Shown here in pieces: positions 1,023 to 33,340 of a stretch of 33,379 nucleotides of DNA; position 1 is the first letter of the stretch, and every line of letters begins with the position of its first letter. The stretch comes from Chthoniobacterales bacterium (lineage in GTDB: Bacteria; Verrucomicrobiota; Verrucomicrobiia; Chthoniobacterales; JACTMZ01). The notes under the pieces are model-generated. The model did no database searches and was not told the origin of the DNA. It was given only the letters and a program-made list of their open reading frames with translations. The stretch is taken from the NCBI GenBank assembly GCA_021463515.1, contig JAJTYZ010000057.1, positions 1 through 33,379 of the forward strand, in the 5' to 3' direction. Made by a program: the position numbers and the translations under genes.

Positions 1023-1094
1023 CGTTATCGGTCTTTGGAATTTTGAAGAGTGCTACGCAGTCCCCAGCTTTTTTACGGCCCATTGATTGAGGCT
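870..1094. repeat. Segmental duplication copy A (HTH body plus 3' end of hicB)
   Basis: Closely similar to 2498-2725, from 'ctcaaagactatc.ggaacggcatcag' to 'cccattgattgaggct'. Confidence 0.85.
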
Positions 1095-1370
1095 TATCCC
1101 TTCGCTTGCGGCTTCGGCAATGAGTCGGCGATGCAGTGTTGGCGGAATGCGGACGACGAATTTCCCACTGCACGGTTTCTCGGGTTGTTCCCCTCGCTTA
1201 GCACAGAATGCCAGATAATCCTCCACGCTTTCCCTTAAAGCTTTTTTTAGCTCATCAACGGTCTTGCCTTGGAAGGTCACAACGTCGCGCAAACCGATCA
1301 CTTCACCGTGGAAGATTTCGGCGTCATCATCGTAAGCCACATTTCCAGTATATCCTTTGTATGTCATCAT
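1053..1370 (-). CDS. hicB: HicB-family antitoxin (type II TA)
   Basis: MMTYKGYTGNVAYDDDAEIFHGEVIGLRDVVTFQGKTVDELKKALRESVEDYLAFC... then 'SLNQWAVKKL': HicB fold followed by a ribbon-helix-helix-like C-terminus. Confidence 0.85.
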   Translation of the reverse strand: MMTYKGYTGNVAYDDDAEIFHGEVIGLRDVVTFQGKTVDELKKALRESVEDYLAFCAKRGEQPEKPCSGKFVVRIPPTLHRRLIAEAASEGISLNQWAVKKLGTA

Positions 1371-1621
1371 GGTTCAACTCCCGCTTCGGTGAGAAACCGC
1401 CTCACGCTTTTGAGTGCGCCTTTATCCGTGTTCGGTGCTGGGTGCGGACGATGGAATACAGCTCTTATCCCTTCCAAAGCCACGCGAACCCGTGAACCAG
1501 AACCTTCGGAAACTTCCGCGCCTAAAGCACAAAACAGCTTCTCGATATCGCGCCACGCCACATCGCCTCGCACGGGTTGTTCGAACACCTTTCGAAGCGT
1601 CTGGCGGTGCTTGTTGTTCAT
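1367..1621 (-). CDS. hicA: HicA-family toxin
   Basis: 84 aa, 'WRDIEKLFCALGAEVSEGSGSRVRVAL...FHRPHP', stop overlaps hicB start by 4 nt. Confidence 0.8.
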   Translation of the reverse strand: MNNKHRQTLRKVFEQPVRGDVAWRDIEKLFCALGAEVSEGSGSRVRVALEGIRAVFHRPHPAPNTDKGALKSVRRFLTEAGVEP

Positions 1622-1630
1622 TCATAAACT

Positions 1631-1659
1631 ATGATACTGATGTGCAGTATCGTTGTCAA
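1631..1659 (-). promoter_or_regulatory. hicAB promoter with internal operator-like inverted repeat
   Basis: Minus strand reads TTGACA-acgatactgcacatcag(17 nt)-TATCAT. The perfect 7-bp inverted repeat GATACTG-N5-CAGTATC (1633-1651) lies in the spacer and -10. Confidence 0.75.
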
Positions 1660-1818
1660 CCTAGAAGTTTGTGGTATAGAGCAACCTGGATTCTGTCCTT
1701 GCATGGGTGGAATTGTCGTGCTGCCCCGTGCCTTCTAATTGGGGGACACCAACACCTCCACGCGAAATTTAGAAAAAATTAACGACGATGAAGACAAGAA
1801 CACAGAGGAAGTACTTGT

Positions 1819-1832
1819 ATTGTATCCACAAT
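1819..1832. promoter_or_regulatory. Short inverted repeat upstream of dinJ-like antitoxin
   Basis: ATTGT-atcc-ACAAT, 17 nt before the ATG at 1850. Possible autoregulatory operator. Confidence 0.3.
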
Positions 1833-1849
1833 GAGACCACATTCAAGGC

Positions 1850-2110
1850 ATGAGTAAAACGGCCACAATACGCACCCGCATTGAACCAGACCTCAAAAGC
1901 GAAGTGGATGACATTCTCTTTCAATTAGGGCTTACGGCTTCGGAAGCAGTACAACTCCTTTACCGGCAAATCAAGTTGCAGCGCGGCTTTCCCTTCGAGG
2001 GGCGGATTCCCCATAGTCTGACCGTGCGCACCTTGAAGGCCAGCCAATCAGGGGAGAATGTGAAACGCTTCGATCGCAAGGAAGAACTCTACGCCGATCT
2101 TGGTTTGTGA
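1850..2110 (+). CDS. RelB/DinJ-family antitoxin
   Basis: MSKTATIRTRIEPDLKSEVDDILFQLGLTASEAVQLLYRQIKLQRGFPF: typical RelB/DinJ ribbon-helix-helix. Confidence 0.9.
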   Translation: MSKTATIRTRIEPDLKSEVDDILFQLGLTASEAVQLLYRQIKLQRGFPFEGRIPHSLTVRTLKASQSGENVKRFDRKEELYADLGL

Positions 2111-2382
2111 GGACTTTCAGCCGAACCCGTCAATTTAAGAAAGACGTCAAACGTGTTGGCAAGCGTGGAAAGGACATGGCTCAACTTCGGGTGATCCTTG
2201 ACTTGTTGATTGAGGGCAAGCCTCTTCCAGCAGAATATAAAGATCATCCCCTGCGCGGCGACTTTTTTGGAAGTCGAGATTGCCATATTGAGCCGGATTG
2301 GGTGCTAATCTACACCCTTACCGAAAAGGACACCCACGTTTGCTTTGAACGAACAGGGACACACAGTGACCTATTTCGCTGA
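2107..2382 (+). CDS. YafQ/RelE-superfamily mRNA interferase toxin
   Basis: 'RQFKKDVKRVGKRGKDMAQLRVILDLLIEGKPLPAEYKDHPLRGDFFGSRDCHIEPDWVLIYTL' matches the YafQ pattern. GTG start overlaps the antitoxin stop. Confidence 0.9.
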   Translation: MRTFSRTRQFKKDVKRVGKRGKDMAQLRVILDLLIEGKPLPAEYKDHPLRGDFFGSRDCHIEPDWVLIYTLTEKDTHVCFERTGTHSDLFR

Positions 2383-2443
2383 ATTTGTTGACGTGCGGCG
2401 TCTCTAGACATTACCTCGATTCTCTGCCTACGCTTCTCACGTA

Positions 2444-2650
2444 ATGCTGCCCATACCCAAAGTGCCACCTATCACCTCCGAACAATTTGCCCGTCTCCTC
2501 AAAGACTATCGGGAACGGCATCAGCTCACTCAGAATGAGGCGGCGGCGAAATTGGGTGTTTCGGTGCGCACGTTGCAGAATTGGGAGATCGCCCGCAACA
2601 TGCCTCGTGGCTTTGGGCTGCGGGCCTTGGTGGGGATTTTGGCACCCTGA
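2444..2650 (+). CDS. Small XRE/Cro-type helix-turn-helix protein (68 aa), copy B
   Basis: Near-identical to the protein at 846-1022: LLKDYRERHQLTQNEAAAKLGVSVRTLQNWEIARNMPRGFGLRALVGILAP. Confidence 0.8.
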   Translation: MLPIPKVPPITSEQFARLLKDYRERHQLTQNEAAAKLGVSVRTLQNWEIARNMPRGFGLRALVGILAP

Positions 2651-2725
2651 CGTTATTGGTCTTTGAAGTTTTGAAGATTAGTGCTACGCAGTCCCCAGCT
2701 TTTTTATAGCCCATTGATTGAGGCT
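2498..2725. repeat. Segmental duplication copy B
   Basis: Same content and orientation as 870-1094. Similarity ends abruptly after 'ttgattgaggct'. Confidence 0.85.
2684..2725 (-). pseudogene. hicB C-terminal remnant (SLNQWAIKKLGTA*)
   Basis: Minus-strand translation reproduces the last residues of the intact HicB (SLNQWAVKKLGTA). The upstream part is missing. Confidence 0.75.
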
Positions 2726-2739
2726 GCCTCCTTTTGCGT

Positions 2740-3840
2740 TCACAACTCTAGCGGAACATCCAAATTTGACAAAAGGCGGCGGCCCTTTTCTGTCACTACA
2801 ACCATATCCTCGTGTCGCGCTCCACCGATTTTGGGATAATACAGTCCGGGCTCTACGGTGAATACCTGCCCGGCTTGAAATACCGCTGCTGCAAAGCGTG
2901 GTTCCTCGTGCAAATCCAACCCCAGCCCATGCCCTGTACCATGGAAAAACCCCGTCCAACGTCCGTCCTCCTGCTTCGTCTCATAACCCTTGGCCTTAAA
3001 AAAATCCAACACTTCTGCATGAACCTTTTTTCCTTTCACTCCAGGCTTAATCGCACGGATAGCGAGTTTCTGGGCGTCACACACCGTCTGCCACAGGGCG
3101 CGTTGGGCGTCGTCGGCGCGGCCTTTGACAACCGTTCGTGTCAAGTCACCAAAATACCCCGTCTTTCTGTCTTTAGGAAATACATCTAAAATTATCAATT
3201 CCTCCGCACACAATGGCCCGCTCCCGCGTTCATGCGGGTCGCATGCCTGACGTCCGCCCGCAACAATGGTGCCATCGGCAAGCCCCCCCGCTCGCAGGAT
3301 CGCGATGTCAATTTCCGCTCGTAAAAGTTCACTAGTCAGGGTCTGCCCACCCCACGTCAAAAGGCGTTTTGCCCCGATCCTTGCCGCGCGAAGAATTTCG
3401 ACTGCTCGTAAAATTCCAATTTGCGACAACTCGGCAGCCTGACGAATTTTTTTCAATTCTCCTTGTGTTTTGATGGTGCGTTGCGGCCAAAAGTGTCCCT
3501 TCGTTGGAATGACCTTAATTCCTGACGCCTCCAAACTCCGTGCCAATCCGAGCGGAAAATTTCCCGGAACTTCGATGCGCCGTATTTTTTGATTCCGCAA
3601 TAAGGCCACGATAGCACCGCCCGCAATCTTCTTTTTTTGGGCTTCCTTCGTCAGCTCGCTCCACGAAAGTACCTCATCCACCTGCGCTTCTCGTCGCCCG
3701 CGATCAATTTCCAGATCGCTGAGGAGGAGCATTTTTTTCCCTTTGTGTTCCAAAAATAAAAAAGCATCCGGCGCATGAAATCCGGTTGCATAAAGCATGT
3801 CCGCCGATTCCGGGCTTCCCGCATAAATAAGCTTAGCCAT
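2740..3840 (-). CDS. M24-family metallopeptidase (Xaa-Pro aminopeptidase-like)
   Basis: 'ELIILDVFPKDRKTGYFGDLTRTVVKG', 'GFFHGTGHGLGLDLHEEP', 'VFTVEPGLYYP' are M24 metal-binding motifs. Confidence 0.9.
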   Translation of the reverse strand: MAKLIYAGSPESADMLYATGFHAPDAFLFLEHKGKKMLLLSDLEIDRGRREAQVDEVLSWSELTKEAQKKKIAGGAIVALLRNQKIRRIEVPGNFPLGLARSLEASGIKVIPTKGHFWPQRTIKTQGELKKIRQAAELSQIGILRAVEILRAARIGAKRLLTWGGQTLTSELLRAEIDIAILRAGGLADGTIVAGGRQACDPHERGSGPLCAEELIILDVFPKDRKTGYFGDLTRTVVKGRADDAQRALWQTVCDAQKLAIRAIKPGVKGKKVHAEVLDFFKAKGYETKQEDGRWTGFFHGTGHGLGLDLHEEPRFAAAVFQAGQVFTVEPGLYYPKIGGARHEDMVVVTEKGRRLLSNLDVPLEL

Positions 3841-4001
3841 CGTTAAAGGTTACCTCGTTGGAGCCGCCAAGATGCGCAGGAGTACCCAGCGATGCAAGCG
3901 CGGGGAATATTGGTCATGCTTAAGTGTGCTTGTGATGCAGGGTGATTGCATGATGTTCGGATTTGGTTTTCTATGTTATATGCTGTATTGATAGCAATCA
4001 G

Positions 4002-4973
4002 ATGATTTCAGCAGAGCATCCTTTTGAAGCGTGGTTAACGATCTGTCGGGAGCAAATTGAAGGGTTTCTCCAAAACCCTCCAGCATTACGATGGGATGAT
4101 TTTTGGCTGAATCCGAGAAGATTGCGCGGCAGTGATTTTTTGATGCGATGGTCTCAAGGAGTTTGGAGTGAAAATCGCTTGGTAGAAGCTGTCAATTCCA
4201 CGAAGGATTTTATAGCACTTCCCTATGGCCCGAGTGGTACCGCGCCGACTAAAAATGTCAGGGAATTTGAGCTATATTTTGAGCGTTTGGAAGCGGCAGG
4301 GTTGGGGCATATTAAAAGGCCTGATTTGCTCATTTTTTCAAAGAACAGCCGGAACATTATAGAGCAAACCGTAGCCGAAATCGGCGGGAGTTCCGAGCTT
4401 CCCTTTGTTAAGGAAGAGCATCCACTGATACAAACACTTTTACGTCATGCGTTAATAGCTGTTGAATGTGAAAACAGCCTTTGGCGCACACAAAGGATGC
4501 CAGATTTTAAAACGCCGCTGCGACCACAACGACGATTGAATGGAAAACTCGGGCTTAAAAAAACTGCTGTTTTGCCGACGATTATCATTAAGGAAGAGGA
4601 TCGTGAACCTTTGAGGCGATGGCAGGAAGCTCATCGGGTTCCTCTCCATATTTGGCATGTATTTTTTGATAATGCTTACGGATTAGCATTCGATCGTGCC
4701 GAACAGTTAATTGCTGAAGGGTTAACGGAGCCTACAATACAGGTTTTTCAGGCTCCCGGGGGCGCGACAACGAAAAAGGCGATCTTTAAACACTATTACC
4801 ATTATGGTTATTCTTTGGGGAGAAGTTCTGAGGAACCCCGATTGCAGCCGGAATTTGTGGAGGATAAAAACGGACACATTTTACCTTATGTTACTTTTAT
4901 CGGTGGGAGATTGGAGTTATCGGAATCGGCTCTTGTGCTTTTGCGCCAAGTTGCTGCGGAGCGCGGGGTATGA
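4002..4973 (+). CDS. Type II restriction endonuclease, tentatively AccI-like
   Basis: Four-nt overlap with a downstream N6-adenine MTase. 'RLRGSDFLMRWSQGVWSE', 'RPDLLIF' and 'ALIAVECENSLW' suggest a PD-(D/E)xK-type nuclease. Family from recall, so tentative. Start taken at MISAEHPF. Confidence 0.7.
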   Translation: MISAEHPFEAWLTICREQIEGFLQNPPALRWDDFWLNPRRLRGSDFLMRWSQGVWSENRLVEAVNSTKDFIALPYGPSGTAPTKNVREFELYFERLEAAGLGHIKRPDLLIFSKNSRNIIEQTVAEIGGSSELPFVKEEHPLIQTLLRHALIAVECENSLWRTQRMPDFKTPLRPQRRLNGKLGLKKTAVLPTIIIKEEDREPLRRWQEAHRVPLHIWHVFFDNAYGLAFDRAEQLIAEGLTEPTIQVFQAPGGATTKKAIFKHYYHYGYSLGRSSEEPRLQPEFVEDKNGHILPYVTFIGGRLELSESALVLLRQVAAERGV

Positions 4974-6514
4974 CAGTTCCTATACAAAATCAACAAACCC
5001 TTCCCTCTGCCGGTGCCGCACGAGAGGCGTTGAGAGAAAAGGGGCAGTTTTGGACGCCTTTGTGGTTAGCAAAAGTTATGGCAGCATGGGTTACGGGATT
5101 AAAGCCTCCGCAGCTCTTTGATCCTGCTGTCGGCCCCGGAACCTTTTTTGCCGCCGCACGAGATGTAGGGTACCAAGGGGATTTTGCAGGTTATGAAGTG
5201 GATCACGCCTCTGTTCTTGAAGGCAAATATCTTAATTTGGAACCGTCCGATTTTTATCAAGTGGTTCTTGGTGATTTTATAGAAACAGAGCAAGAGCCTT
5301 CTTTCTCCGCGATTATTTCTAACCCGCCTTATATTCGGCATCATCGCCTCAGTGAAAATCGAAAGGCTCAACTAGGCACCATCGCCCAAGAAGTTTTGGG
5401 CTTTACGTTAGACGGGCGCGTCGGCCTTCATGTGTATTTTTTGCTCAAATGCCTTGAACTTCTTTCTGAGGGTGGGCGGCTTGCTTTTCTTCTTCCTGCT
5501 GATGTCTGTGAAGGGGTTTCTTCAAGAGCACTTTGGTATCGCCTTTGTGAACGATTTTACCTAGAGGCCGTTTTGACATTTGATAAGTCAGCAGCTCCAT
5601 TTCCCCAAGTGGATACCAATGCCATTGTCTTTTTGATTTCCAATAATGAGCCTAAGAAAATCATGCGATGGATTCGTGTTCTAGAGCGTGATGAACTCGC
5701 CCTCCGACGATTGTTGCAGGATGGAAAAAATGCAAAGGCTCGTTCAAGTGCTTACATTTGTCGTGAACGCCCCTTGTCTGAAGCACTTCGCACCGGCTTG
5801 TCACGTTCCGTTCGTACATCTTCTTCACATGGGATTTCTTTAACGCGCTTGGCCCGCGTTGTTCGTGGCATCGCTTCAGGTGCCAATGATTTTTTCTTTT
5901 TAACAGAGCGGCAGATTGACGAATTAGAGTTGGATTCCCGTTGTTTTGTCAGAGCTATTGGAAGAACAAGGGATTGTCGGGCGGAAAAAATGACCCATAA
6001 AATTTTGAATGAACTTGAGATGAAAGGGCGTCCGTCATGGCTGCTTTCCCTCGATCATTCGCTTAAAGAAACGTTGTCGCCCCCAATGCGTGCTTATCTT
6101 GAATGGGGAGAATCGCAGGGATTTCATGAGCGGGCCCTCATTAAAAGCCGTCGGCCTTGGTATAAGATGGAGCGACGGGAGCCACCGCCTATTTTATTTG
6201 CTTATCTCGGGCGCAGGGATTGCCGCTTTATTTTAAATGAAGTAGGCGTTGTTCCGCTGACTGGTTTCCTCTGCGTTTATCCGCACGACTCGCGACCTGA
6301 AGAAATAGAGAAACTTTGGCGTGCTTTAAATCACCCTGCCACCTTGGCTAATTTGGCGTTTGTTGGGAAATCTTATGGAGGAGGTGCCATCAAAGTAGAG
6401 CCGCGTCAATTGGAGGCACTAGAGATTCCTTCCTTTGTATTATCAGAAACGCATACGCTCCCATTGAAAGCACCCGCAATAACACCTCCTTTTCCACAAT
6501 TTGCAGAATCGTAG
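4970..6514 (+). CDS. N6-adenine DNA methyltransferase (gamma class, Eco57I/TaqI-like architecture)
   Basis: 'LFDPAVGPGTFFAAA' (SAM motif I), 'AIISNPPYIRHH' (NPPY), C-terminal region consistent with target recognition. Confidence 0.92.
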   Translation: MTVPIQNQQTLPSAGAAREALREKGQFWTPLWLAKVMAAWVTGLKPPQLFDPAVGPGTFFAAARDVGYQGDFAGYEVDHASVLEGKYLNLEPSDFYQVVLGDFIETEQEPSFSAIISNPPYIRHHRLSENRKAQLGTIAQEVLGFTLDGRVGLHVYFLLKCLELLSEGGRLAFLLPADVCEGVSSRALWYRLCERFYLEAVLTFDKSAAPFPQVDTNAIVFLISNNEPKKIMRWIRVLERDELALRRLLQDGKNAKARSSAYICRERPLSEALRTGLSRSVRTSSSHGISLTRLARVVRGIASGANDFFFLTERQIDELELDSRCFVRAIGRTRDCRAEKMTHKILNELEMKGRPSWLLSLDHSLKETLSPPMRAYLEWGESQGFHERALIKSRRPWYKMERREPPPILFAYLGRRDCRFILNEVGVVPLTGFLCVYPHDSRPEEIEKLWRALNHPATLANLAFVGKSYGGGAIKVEPRQLEALEIPSFVLSETHTLPLKAPAITPPFPQFAES

Positions 6515-6515
6515 A

Positions 6516-6555
6516 GCATGGCACCTTGCGAAGCGCAAGATTCCTTGCTTCATGC
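6516..6555. other. Nested inverted repeat after the MTase gene
   Basis: GCATG-gcac-CTTGCG-aag-CGCAAG-attccttgctt-CATGC. The inner 6-bp arms are perfect and there is no T-tract. Confidence 0.4.
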
Positions 6556-6664
6556 CAGCTCGTAAAACCGCTTAGGGCACTCGTGGCATGTCGCGAGAGA
6601 AAATTTTGAGTTTTCAAATTCGCACGGGATTGAATGCCTTGGTAGGGTTCGTTATACTGGAAGA

Positions 6665-7636
6665 ATGAAGATATTTGTCGCTGGGGGAGCGGGGTATATT
6701 GGAAGTATTTGCGTGGAGCAAATGCTAGATCGTGGGCATGAGGTGGCGGTGTTTGATAATCTGACGGAGGGACATCGTGCGGCGGTGGATTTGCGGGCGA
6801 CGTTTTATGAGGCGGATTTAGGGGATCGTGACGCCGTGGTGCGGGCTATGGGAGAGGCCGCTCCCGATGCGATCATGCACTTTGCAGCCAGTGCTCTTGT
6901 GGGAGAGTCCATGACGAATCCTTCAAAATATTTCCGCAATAACGTGGCCAATGGCATCAATCTCCTCGATGCCATGGTGACCTGGGGCGTCAAAAAGTTC
7001 GTTTTTTCCTCCACGTGCGCCACCTTTGGGATTCCTGAAAAAATGCCGATTGATGAATCCTTGCCTCAGCATCCGATCAATCCTTACGGCGAATCGAAGC
7101 TTATGTTTGAGCGTATGTTGCGGTGGTATGACGAAATACACGGACTGCGTTTTACGGCGTTGCGCTATTTTAATGCGGCCGGTGCTTCTAAAAAATTTGG
7201 TGAAGATCACCGGATTGAGACGCATTTGATTCCTAACATTCTCAAGGTGGCTCTCGGCCAAAAGGAAGCGGTGGAAATCTATGGCACCGATTATCCGACA
7301 CCCGATGGAACTTGCATTCGTGATTATATTCACATTTTAGATTTGGCCGATGCGCATATTCTGGCCTTGGATCGCGAGGAGAGTGACTTTTTTAATATCG
7401 GTACGGGAGGCGGAACGTCCGTGCGCGAGGTGATTGATTGCTGCCGCCGCGTGACGGGGAGAGAGATTGCCGTGGTGGAAAAATCTCGACGCTCAGGCGA
7501 TCCGCCGCGGTTGGTGGCAGGGTCGGAAAAAATTCGTCGTGTGCTGGGTTGGGAACCGCGATTTGAGAGTATCGAAGCGATTGTGACGAGTGCCTGGCAT
7601 TGGCATCAGCAGCATCCGCAGGGATATGGAGATTAA
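6665..7636 (+). CDS. galE: UDP-glucose 4-epimerase
   Basis: 'GGAGYIGSICVEQML' Rossmann motif, 'NPYGESKLMFERML' YxxxK, 'DGTCIRDYIHILDLADAH'. Confidence 0.95.
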   Translation: MKIFVAGGAGYIGSICVEQMLDRGHEVAVFDNLTEGHRAAVDLRATFYEADLGDRDAVVRAMGEAAPDAIMHFAASALVGESMTNPSKYFRNNVANGINLLDAMVTWGVKKFVFSSTCATFGIPEKMPIDESLPQHPINPYGESKLMFERMLRWYDEIHGLRFTALRYFNAAGASKKFGEDHRIETHLIPNILKVALGQKEAVEIYGTDYPTPDGTCIRDYIHILDLADAHILALDREESDFFNIGTGGGTSVREVIDCCRRVTGREIAVVEKSRRSGDPPRLVAGSEKIRRVLGWEPRFESIEAIVTSAWHWHQQHPQGYGD

Positions 7637-7692
7637 AGAAACAGCCGATTTGTTTTGCTTCGTACGGCAGGTTTTTTAGGCTTCGAGGGTTC

Positions 7693-9993
7693 ATGCGCAA
7701 ACTTCTGTCAGCCTGCTTCCTTCTTTGGAGCCTTGCAGCTATTTCTCATGCTCAATTCGGGAGCTTCACGGATACACCGATTGAAATTCAAGCGGATGGT
7801 GAAACGCGCTTTGTGGGCGGGGTGGCGGTGGCGGAGGACAACGTTCAAATTCACTACGCCGGCACGGATATTTATACCGACTATGCCGAATATAATCCCG
7901 AGACACGCGAGGTGCTGTTGCTGGGGAATATCCGTATTTATCACGAAGGGCGCATCCTCACGGGGCAACGAGCGGTGTATAATTTGGAGAGCAAAAAAAT
8001 ACGGGCACTCGACTTTGAAGGCGGGGATCAGATCATTAAATTCAGCACCCTGAGCCTGCAAGCACCCACGCTCAAGGAGTTTCGTCCACGGGCCTTGACC
8101 CTTACCACGAGTGACAGCTCCGAACCGGATTACCGGGTGAAAGCAAAAGCGGCGCGTATTTATCCCGATGATCGGGTGATTCTCTCGAATGCGACGCTTT
8201 ACGTGGGAGAGACGCCGGTGTTTTGGTTTCCTTATTTGTATGCGCCGTTGGGGAAAACGGGATGGAAAATTCAACCCGGTTACAACTCCACGTGGGGTGC
8301 CTTTTTGCTTTTGGGCTATCGGTTTCCGCTGACAAGTAAGACCGATGCGATGGCACGCTTTGACTATCGCAGCGAGCGTGGCGTGGGCGTGGGGATTGAC
8401 CTTTCCGCAAATTACGGACCTAAAAATTTGAGCTCGGGAAACTTTCGTGCCTACTACGCCAACGACACCAATCCCGGCACAAACGACACGGCCTTTGATC
8501 GCTCCGATGTGCCGAGCAGCGATCGCTTCATGGTCAATTTCCAAAATCGCCTCGTGGCTAATGAGGATGTTTATGCCACGACGGATATCAATAGCATCAG
8601 CGATCAATACTTTCTTGAGGATTATTATCCTGGAGAGTTTCTTCGCGACCCGCAGCCAGACAACAACCTCTCGCTCAATTGGCTTACGGAAAGCTTTCAG
8701 TTCAACCTGCTCACGCGATGGCAGATGAACAACTGGCAGGAAGTCACGTCGCGACTACCGGAATTTTCATGGACTGCAAAACAGACACGCTTGTTTGGGT
8801 TGCCGATTTTTTACGATGGCTCCACGCGCCTCGGCTATCTCCGCAAACAATATCCATCCGGCCAACAACCACAGTACATCACACAACTTCAAGAAGCAGT
8901 TTTTCGTCCGGGGCTCATGGATTTAAACACCGGAATCCTCAATGGCTATGACGCCTTCCGTTTTGATACTTTCCATCAATTTTCTTATCCGCGCACATAT
9001 TTCGGATGGCTTTCCTTAATTCCGAAAGCCGGATTTCGCGGCACGTACTATGACCGCACAGGAAACTCCACGCTTGTTTCCCTCGGTGAAAGCACGGGAG
9101 GTGGAACGTTTCGTCCGGTCTTTAACATCGGTCTCGAAGGATCATTTAAACTTTCCGCCGTGTATGAAAAACCTCAGTCGAGATTTTTCGGATTGGATGG
9201 GATCAAACATGTCATCCAGCCATTTTTTAATTACGCCTACGTGAATAATGCTGGCACGGCGGCGAATGAAATCCTGCAGTTTGATCAATTGGTTCCTTCG
9301 ACGATTCTTCCGTCGCTCAATTTCCCGCAATTTACGGCGATTGACAGCCTTGATACCTCCAACATTCTTCGGCTTGGCGTTCGTAATCGTCTGCTTACGC
9401 GTCGCGATAATGACACATTTGAGTGGTTTGCGTGGGAAACATTTGGCGATATCAATTTCGATAATCCTTACCAGCAAGATGCCGGGTCATTATCCAACCT
9501 TTACAACAACATCCTTTTCTCTCCAGTGCCGTGGATGGGTGTGGGCTTAGCAACGCAGGTGCCTCTAACCGAACAAGGCTTCACCGATTTCAACACCTAC
9601 GTAACATGGCAGCCAGCTCGCGATTTTTCCTTCATGGTTTTTCAGCGCTATATCGAGAGCAATCCGTATTTTCAGGATGACAGCATAGCAGGTGCCACAG
9701 CGTATTGGCGCATCAATGACAACTGGGCGGCGAGTGCGGGCGCGACTTACGATTTCACTTACAGCACGACACAAACGCAGCGCTATATGTTACATCGTGA
9801 TTTGAGTTCTTGGCTGCTTTCCGCCGGATTTCTTGTCACCGACAATCGCGCGACTTTTGGAGGAACCACCAGTGGTGATGTGAGCGTCGGTTTCCTCCTC
9901 ATGTTGACGCTTAAAGATGCGCCGCAAATTAATTTGCCCTTGGCGTTCGATGTGCTGGGTGCTCAGCAAAACCAGCAGCAGCGCGGGTATTGA
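7693..9993 (+). CDS. lptD: LPS-assembly protein LptD (OstA domain plus outer-membrane barrel)
   Basis: Signal peptide MRKLLSACFLLWSLAAISHA, OstA-like 'YTDYAEYNPETREVLLLGNIRIYHEG', 'PVFWFPYLYAPLG', barrel-like C-terminus. Confidence 0.88.
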   Translation: MRKLLSACFLLWSLAAISHAQFGSFTDTPIEIQADGETRFVGGVAVAEDNVQIHYAGTDIYTDYAEYNPETREVLLLGNIRIYHEGRILTGQRAVYNLESKKIRALDFEGGDQIIKFSTLSLQAPTLKEFRPRALTLTTSDSSEPDYRVKAKAARIYPDDRVILSNATLYVGETPVFWFPYLYAPLGKTGWKIQPGYNSTWGAFLLLGYRFPLTSKTDAMARFDYRSERGVGVGIDLSANYGPKNLSSGNFRAYYANDTNPGTNDTAFDRSDVPSSDRFMVNFQNRLVANEDVYATTDINSISDQYFLEDYYPGEFLRDPQPDNNLSLNWLTESFQFNLLTRWQMNNWQEVTSRLPEFSWTAKQTRLFGLPIFYDGSTRLGYLRKQYPSGQQPQYITQLQEAVFRPGLMDLNTGILNGYDAFRFDTFHQFSYPRTYFGWLSLIPKAGFRGTYYDRTGNSTLVSLGESTGGGTFRPVFNIGLEGSFKLSAVYEKPQSRFFGLDGIKHVIQPFFNYAYVNNAGTAANEILQFDQLVPSTILPSLNFPQFTAIDSLDTSNILRLGVRNRLLTRRDNDTFEWFAWETFGDINFDNPYQQDAGSLSNLYNNILFSPVPWMGVGLATQVPLTEQGFTDFNTYVTWQPARDFSFMVFQRYIESNPYFQDDSIAGATAYWRINDNWAASAGATYDFTYSTTQTQRYMLHRDLSSWLLSAGFLVTDNRATFGGTTSGDVSVGFLLMLTLKDAPQINLPLAFDVLGAQQNQQQRGY

Positions 9994-15120: not shown

Positions 15121-15999
15121 ATGCACAATAACACCCTTAAAATCGGTTTGCCCTCCGGCAGCCTCATGGAGCAAACCCTGACATTATTTGCCAAGGCAGG
15201 TTTCCATGTGACAGGAGCGCGTCGTTCTTATCGCCCTACGGTAGATGATCCAGAGTTGATCGTTCATTTGCTGCGTGCGCAGGAGATCAGCCGCTATGTG
15301 GAGCAGGGGTTTCTTGATTGCGGAATTACCGGGCGCGATTGGGTGGCGGAAAACGGTTCGGATGTGGCCTCGCTTTGTGATCTTCCGTATAGCAAAGCTA
15401 CTTCGTCGCCCACGCGTTGGGTGGTTGTGGTGCCGGAAGATTCCCCAATCCGCACTGTGGAGGATCTCGCCGGCAAACGTGTGGCCACGGAGGCTGTGGG
15501 GCTGACACGAGAGTTTTTTCGTCGGCGCGGCGTGGAGACCGAAGTGGAATTTAGCTGGGGTGCAACGGAGGTTAAAGTTCCCGATTTGGTAGATGCCATC
15601 GTAGATATCACCGAGACAGGCTCCTCACTTAAAGCCAACAAACTCCGCATTCTCGAAACCATCATGGAGTCTTATCCGGTGTTCATTTCCAATCGCGAGG
15701 CGTACTCCGACGAATGGAAACGTGGGAAGATGGACCGCGTGTTGCTGTTGCTTCAAGGGGCGTTGGCGGCACGCGATAAGGTCGGACTAAAAATGAATCT
15801 TCCCGAAGCTCACATTGAGAATTTGCTTGAGCAATTGCCCTCTCTTCGGAATCCTACGATTTCACCTTTGGCTCACGATGGCTGGGTTGCTATCGAAACA
15901 GTCATCGATGAGAAGGTTGTCCGCGAAATTATCCCGAAGCTTAAAGCACTCGGGGCCGAGGGCATCATAGAGTATCCTCTAAACAAACTGGTTTATTAA
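15121..15999 (+). CDS. hisG: ATP phosphoribosyltransferase (long form)
   Basis: '[23 protein letters not shown]', '[24 protein letters not shown]', C-terminal regulatory domain '[38 protein letters not shown]'. Confidence 0.95.
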
Positions 16000-18980: not shown

Positions 18981-20065
18981 GGGCGGAGCGAGTCTACCGC
19001 TATGCGAAGATCATCTTCCGTCACATCTTTGACGACACGCGCCGTACCAAGTTGGGAGCTGACGACAAAACGGATATTACCTCCGTCAAATTTCTTATCA
19101 TGCCGCGTTGCTGCAAGAATAGTGTCCGCATCGAGATTTTCCGGCAGCCGTAAAGGCAGACCATAGGCAAGCAGTTTCTCGCGAACCCGCTGGGCATCGG
19201 ATGCAGGAAGCCCGTATTTTCGCTGTGAAATTTCCAAGGCAGCACACATGCCGAGGCTAATGGCTTCGCCGTGAAGCAGGGTGCCATAACCCGCAACATT
19301 TTCGATGGCATGGCCAATGGTATGCCCAAAATTAAGCAGGGCACGTTGCCCGGTGCGTTCCATTTCGTCTTCCTTCACAATGGTTGCTTTAATGGCGATA
19401 TTGTGGGCGATGACGGAAGAAAGTGAACTTCGTGGCTGGCTGGGTTTTAAAGTATCGAGCAATGCGGCGTCCCGAATGACGGCGTGTTTAATGACTTCGG
19501 CAAATCCTTCGCGGTATTCGCGATCGGGAAGGGTTTCGAGTGTGGTGGTGTCGGCGAGTACGAGACGTGGTTGATGAAAGGAACCAATGAGATTTTTTCC
19601 CGCCCGTGCGTTGACCCCCGTTTTCCCGCCGATGGAACTATCCACCTGCGCTACGATGGTGGTGGGAATTTGAACCAAAGGAATCCCCCGCAGGAAAATG
19701 GCGGCAACAAACCCTGCAAGATCGCCAACAACACCACCGCCAAGGGCCACAAGGAAGCTTCCTCGATCCAATCCGGCACTCAGCAGACGATTCACCACAT
19801 TTTCTGCGGTGGCCATGGACTTCGATGTTTCCCCTGCAGGAACTGCGAGCAGATGAGCATCGTAACCCCCAGCAGTAATCGAATCCATGACAACAGAGCC
19901 GTGAAGACGTCCGACAGTTTCATCGGTAATGACGGCGCAACGTCCGCTTATTTTTTCGTCGGCGCAAAACTCGCCGGTGCGTGCAAGAAGACCGGTGCCG
20001 ACCAACACGCGGTAGCTGTTGCTTGGAAGAGCGACAGGAATTTCGAGGAAGTGATCGTTGTTCAC
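18977..20065 (-). CDS. aroB: 3-dehydroquinate synthase
   Basis: '[47 protein letters not shown]', '[13 protein letters not shown]'. Confidence 0.96.
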
Positions 20066-32794: not shown

Positions 32795-33340
32795 ATTTTT
32801 CGGCGAAATCCTCAGCGAGCCAAAGAAATGGAAGCGACTCGGAAAAGCAAACTCGCTGCCGTCGAAAGTCAAATTCTCCAAGCCAACACCTATCTCGACG
32901 AGCATCCGCGTGCCGCCGTAGATACCGCACTCAAGGCGGTGAATAAAAAGATTCTCAAACTCAAACTCGACTCCTGGGTAACCATCAAAGCCGTGGACGG
33001 TCAGCGTAAAGCCGAAATGGACATAGATGAATCACAACGCCGAGAAGAAGCCAAACTTGACGGATGTTACGTTCTTAAAACCGATCTCACGGCTGCCCAA
33101 ATCACCAAAGAGGATGTGCATGCACGTTACAAAGATTTAGCCCATGTAGAGCAAGCCTTCCGCACATCGAAGACCGTGGAATTGGAGATGCGCCCCATTC
33201 ATGTTCGCACCGAGAAAAGCACACGCGGGCATACTTTGGTGATAATGCTGGCCTATCGCCTGATCAAGGAACTTCTCCGCTGCTGGGAGGGTTTAACCCG
33301 CATATTTCATACAGGAGATGATCTTGAGATGAATTGGTAG
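32795..33340 (+). pseudogene. 5'-truncated IS1634-type (IS4-like DDE) transposase
   Basis: 'RRNPQRAKEMEATRKSKL...', 'LDGCYVLKTDL', 'RYKDLAHVEQAFRTSKTVELEMRPIHVRTEKSTRGHTLVIMLAYRLIKEL'. The frame is closed by TAA at 32792 and the N-terminal catalytic part is absent. Confidence 0.85.

Follow-up and report, generated by a model that had tools for sequence, protein, structure and literature searches.

A 33,379-bp stretch of a Chthoniobacterales genome, analyzed over its whole length and called the window here, contains an endonuclease gene next to a DNA methylase gene and almost no GTMKAC sites. AccI of Acinetobacter calcoaceticus cuts GT^MKAC, and a sequence-only reading had recognized the AccI family and proposed that the pair acts on that target. 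The question is whether these genes recognize the sites that are missing. We conclude, with a probability of about 0.8, that 4002-6514 encodes a tandem Type II restriction-modification (R-M) system of an AccI-fold subfamily, that RTCGAY is its most likely target, and that the loss of GTAGAC and GTATAC is a separate matter. The RTCGAY assignment is based on statistical association.

An AccI-family nuclease gene and an adenine methylase gene in tandem

The first gene, R (4002-4973, plus strand), encodes a 323-residue protein matching Pfam RE_AccI (PF09545) at 6e-17 and 62 bits, with a cut-off of 22. All 58 aligned members of its subfamily match this profile. PADLOC labels R a Type II restriction endonuclease (REase_II) and its neighbor a Type II methyltransferase. 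An in-frame TTG lies upstream at 3963, but the ATG at 4002 is preferred; this start had been chosen earlier, and the homologue L030 (contig G008:C10) bears it out, with 323 residues and an equivalent start. The second gene, M (4970-6514, plus strand), overlaps R by 4 nt and encodes a 514-residue N6-adenine DNA methylase with Eco57I, N6_Mtase, and M_Eco57I_C domains. From its sequence and an alignment with M.TaqI, M has a motif I (DPAVGPGTFF, residues 51-60, 5120-5149, plus strand) predicted to bind AdoMet and a motif IV (NPPY, residues 118-121, 5321-5332, plus strand). M shares NPPY, the Eco57I/N6_Mtase domains, and the M.Eco57I C-terminal domain with the M.TaqI/M.Eco57I class. It is distant from M.TaqI itself (5e-6), and its partner is an AccI-family nuclease. 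Its class and motif IV predict m6A as the methylated base.

A search for R homologues returned 121 homologous stretches in Bacteria and Archaea, and we used the best 80 of the 121. M lies immediately 3' of R in 79 of these 80 loci. In the sole exception, L096, the contig stops 332 bp past the R match. The genes are thus separate, adjacent, and conserved as a pair, as is expected of a Type II R-M system. The R frame is interrupted by stops in four homologues (L039, L046, L059, and L085).

When the subfamily was aligned together with two distant proteins of the AccI family, invariant residues emerged in R: E57, K105-R-P-D108, E155, K197, and E199, which span a candidate active-site region (4170-4598, plus strand), and D200, which follows directly (4599-4601). 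These residues probably have a catalytic role. An AlphaFold2 model of R has a pLDDT of 85, which is fair confidence. Foldseek comparison of the model with the PDB gave weak nuclease matches that included D212, Hjc, and RecU, all with E values of at least 0.02, so the likeness of the predicted structure to PD-(D/E)XK nucleases is weak. Searching the PDB by sequence, with either R or its profile, turned up no relative.

The pair has probably moved horizontally. Its G+C content is lower (0.46 for R and 0.47 for M, against 0.52 for the window), and the pair in a second genome of the genus, G008 (R 67% identical), is followed by apparent recQ and mnmA genes rather than galE, as judged by reading open reading frames. 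A search of plasmids and phages with R found no close homologue; there was one distant match on an archaeal plasmid (26%), which is annotated "AccI family." Upstream of the R-M genes, at a distance of 1.6-2.9 kb, are two toxin-antitoxin modules, HicA/HicB (1053-1621, minus strand) and RelB/YafQ (1850-2382, plus strand); an M24 peptidase gene (2740-3840, minus strand) sits between them and the pair. At the other end of the window, a 170-residue open reading frame (32828-33340, plus strand) resembles, on visual inspection, the C-terminal portion of an IS transposase but has no Pfam match.

Two sets of sites missing from the window and its genome

An exact count confirmed the single GTMKAC that had been found by eye in the window: a GTCTAC at 18992-18997, with no GTAGAC, GTCGAC, or GTATAC. 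Scanning error is therefore not the cause. The earlier expectation of about 33 was too high. Base composition gives 32.5, but Markov models give 12.6 (order 1), 10.1 (order 2), and 5.5 (maximal order), and synonymous-codon shuffling gives 10.2 ± 3.1, with a minimum of 3 in 300 shuffles. The Poisson probability of one site or none is 0.027 under the maximal-order model and 4e-4 under codon shuffling. Therefore, the window alone is suggestive of a deficit.

The whole genome is decisive. The window's genome (G000) is a draft of 2,113,811 bp in 140 contigs and is 66% complete. It has 17 GTCGAC, 42 GTAGAC/GTCTAC, and 18 GTATAC sites, compared with about 166, 247, and 90 expected when a maximal-order Markov model of a 431-kb sample is scaled up. 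All three are thus at 0.10-0.20 of expectation, and the genome-wide Markov comparison upholds the proposed avoidance. In the 431-kb sample itself, there were 13 GTMKAC sites versus 103 expected (0.13).

RTCGAY comprises ATCGAT, ATCGAC/GTCGAT, and GTCGAC. The last of these is also a member of GTMKAC. The window has one RTCGAY, an ATCGAT at 15904-15909, versus 18.1 expected under the maximal-order model or 21.3 under codon shuffling. This deficit is larger than that for GTMKAC, and it had been overlooked. In the 431-kb sample, RTCGAY occurred 19 times versus 207 expected (0.09).

Composition, codon use, stop-codon avoidance, or miscounting might in principle produce such deficits without restriction. 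GTAGAC and GTCTAC do contain TAG or CTA, and the order-1 expectation is well under the uniform one. However, shuffling that keeps both protein sequence and codon use predicts 153 ± 10 GTMKAC and 293 RTCGAY sites in the sampled coding DNA of G000, in which there are 13 and 17. Therefore, codon bias, raised earlier as a partial cause, is excluded. The same shuffling of a congener that lacks the genes, G010, gives ratios of 1.00 for GTMKAC (121 versus 121) and 1.10 for RTCGAY. Codon shuffling and the contrast within the genus together refute a compositional origin, which we regard as having virtually no chance of being right.

We also scanned the G000 sample for all six-base palindromic degenerate motifs in which each member is depleted. 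By z-score RTCGAY ranked first and GTMKAC third, with RGCGCY (ratio 0.43) between them, and RTCGAY and GTMKAC are the strongest depleted coherent motifs of this kind. Members of NTCGAN outside RTCGAY, such as ATCGAA (1.52), CTCGAC (1.39), and ATCGAG, are undepleted, although CTCGAG (0.48) and TTCGAA (0.43) are depleted, as is GTGCAC (0.24) among the GTNNAC hexamers. GTNNAC and GTYRAC were rejected as wider single motifs, because GTTAAC (0.87), GTCAAC (0.92), GTCCAC (1.05), and others are near expectation. Further palindromes are avoided in G000, including GTGCAC, CCGCGG (0.36), GCGCGC (0.36), ATGCAT (0.39), and RGCGCY, suggesting more past or present R-M systems.

Site avoidance in genomes with and without the gene pair

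Among 11 genomes of the window's genus, R and M occur in G000 and G008 only. These two have 95 and 22 ATCGAC sites, whereas the other nine have 1,710-3,270, and per megabase they are the lowest of 57 relatives. (The G008 figures are whole-genome counts, as its sample is skewed to contigs that hold sites.) GTAGAC counts do not divide the genus in this way. They are 42 in G000 and 8 in G008, but G009 (152) and G003 (210) are also low.

We then compared 47 carrier genomes from many phyla, with R 56-74% identical. Observed/expected ratios here are rough, since each expectation comes from one 4-13 kb locus. The ATCGAC ratio had a median of 0.13 and was below 0.35 in 39 of the 47. GTAGAC, which is diagnostic of AccI specificity, had a median of 0.81 and was below 0.35 in 17 of the 47. 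Cultured organisms with the pair include Anabaena sp. FACHB-1237 and Dolichospermum circinale AWQC310F. The two cyanobacterial carriers had ratios of 0.06-0.10 for ATCGAC and about 1.0 for GTAGAC, and many Chloroflexota carriers had 0.04-0.2 for ATCGAC and above 2 for GTAGAC. Eight carriers showed little ATCGAC avoidance (for example, L079 at 0.96 and L083 at 1.40). In 840 kb pooled from around the 80 homologues, the ratios were 0.28 for ATCGAT, 0.27 for ATCGAC, 0.18 for GTCGAC, and 1.14 for GTAGAC. The Rhodocyclaceae, which belong to another phylum, provided a second taxon with non-carrier controls. The carrier has 87 ATCGAC sites in 4.0 Mb. Of 60 members of the family, 59 have counts of 1,432-7,918; the remaining one, G163, has just 136 in 2.1 Mb, compared with more than 1,400 in other relatives, and we predict that it carries an RTCGAY system.

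A genome with a more AccI-like protein, G046, served as a family control. Its 85-kb sample has no GTCGAC (30 expected), no GTAGAC (6), and no GTATAC (1.5), but 43 ATCGAC sites versus 41 expected. The G046 protein scores 130 bits against PF09545, compared with 62 bits, in two stretches, for R. It is about 30% identical to R and has the KRPD motif, E155, K197, and E199-D200 in common with it. Gene order also differs, being tandem in the window and convergent in G046. R shares the AccI family profile, but AccI targets GTMKAC, whereas genome avoidance points to RTCGAY for the window's pair.

By computation, then, RTCGAY avoidance follows the R-M genes, in that ATCGAC is avoided in 39 of 47 carriers and in two taxa with non-carrier controls, and ATCGAT, ATCGAC, and GTCGAC are all depleted in the samples and pooled loci. 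GTMKAC avoidance does not follow them, either among the 47 carriers or among the congeners. Of the sequence-only reading, the AccI family, the N6-adenine methylase partner, and genuine GTMKAC avoidance all stood; GTMKAC as the enzyme's target was not supported, given the medians of 0.81 for GTAGAC and 0.13 for ATCGAC. Homology points, indirectly and at the level of the subfamily, to a different specificity.

That reading made the pair an AccI isoschizomer and the sole cause of the depletion. The PF09545 match, the pronounced scarcity of GTMKAC in both G000 and G008, and the avoidance of GTAGAC in all eight verrucomicrobial carriers examined are in its favor. However, most carriers do not avoid GTAGAC, the loss of ATCGAT and ATCGAC in G000, G008, and 39 of 47 carriers is left unexplained, and G003 and G009 partly avoid GTMKAC without having the genes. 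We therefore consider an isoschizomer improbable.

In Type II systems, the methylase marks host sites and the endonuclease cuts unmarked DNA. What we say next on cleavage, the methylated base, the cut position, activity in the window's strain, and why the other GTMKAC sites are gone is inferred. M would methylate the adenine in each RTCGAY half-site, and R would cut unmethylated incoming DNA, as well as host sites that escape methylation. Occasional failures of marking would then select against host sites, and long exposure could have stripped the host genome of most RTCGAY, GTCGAC among them. That GTAGAC, GTCTAC, and GTATAC are scarce too would reflect a second, separate avoidance, imposed by another GTMKAC system that has been lost or lies in unassembled sequence.

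Mutation at methylated bases, such as cytosine deamination, is an alternative way to lose sites without restriction selection, and methylation-linked mutation is established for 5-methylcytosine. However, M has NPPY and N6-adenine methylase domains, and the products expected from RTCGAY, TTGA and TCAA, are not enriched relative to G010 (ratio of 1.01 for C to T at position 3). This explanation is very improbable.

RTCGAY is a known R-M motif, and the AccI family is also known. RTCGAY is listed as a restriction motif of Bifidobacterium breve UCC2003 (PMC12592239, citing Bottacini et al. 2018). As listed there, the motif of that Type II system equals the one assigned here. The link of a large PF09545 subfamily to RTCGAY appears new. 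Annotation by family name would call this widespread subfamily AccI and assign an incorrect target to it. Comparing genome-wide site avoidance in carriers and non-carriers is a cheap way to obtain testable specificity predictions for uncultured bacteria. Such predictions can help in making the DNA of these bacteria transformable and in the discovery of new restriction enzymes.

The remaining loss of GTMKAC sites

G000 and G008 have truly lost GTAGAC and GTATAC sites, and RTCGAY does not account for this. A motif depleted around an R-M gene is thus not necessarily the target of the enzyme. G003 and G009 have ratios of 0.27 and 0.22 for GTCGAC, 0.47 and 0.46 for GTAGAC, and 1.34 and 1.28 for ATCGAC, and searches of both genomes found no AccI-family R or related M. 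Rusinov et al. (2015, PMC4687349) tied avoidance to resident R-M systems and described traces of lost systems in genomes that lack the genes. What is seen in G003 and G009, a partial avoidance, fits such traces, and it is possible that they once had a system of this kind. Our use of avoidance differs from that study in that it gives a subfamily a new specificity. GTAGAC avoidance is dispersed over the R tree, with 11 changes compared with 14.8 after shuffling, a pattern that fits an unlinked cause.

The main alternative is that, in the verrucomicrobial clade, one pair has a composite target made up of RTCGAY plus GTAGAC/GTCTAC/GTATAC. If so, a single R-M system would have emptied the genome of both sets of sites. 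On the R tree, the window's clade has five members, and all of them avoid both site sets, GTAGAC included. Furthermore, searches of the G000 and G008 assemblies found no second AccI-like system. Even so, the union is not one simple degenerate motif, since ATAGAC, ATATAC, and ATCTAC are not avoided; GTMKAC loss occurs alone in G003 and G009, where the genes are absent; and the verrucomicrobial carriers G057 and G087 have a separate AccI-like protein. We consider a composite target unlikely, though less so than the other alternatives, and prefer RTCGAY as the target with a second, separate avoidance.

In G057 (C226:6561-7385) and G087 (C98:3508-4287), this second, more AccI-like PF09545 protein is encoded beside a window-type R. 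The two kinds of protein can therefore co-occur. The G057 copy of the AccI-like gene has a TGA within its matched frame.
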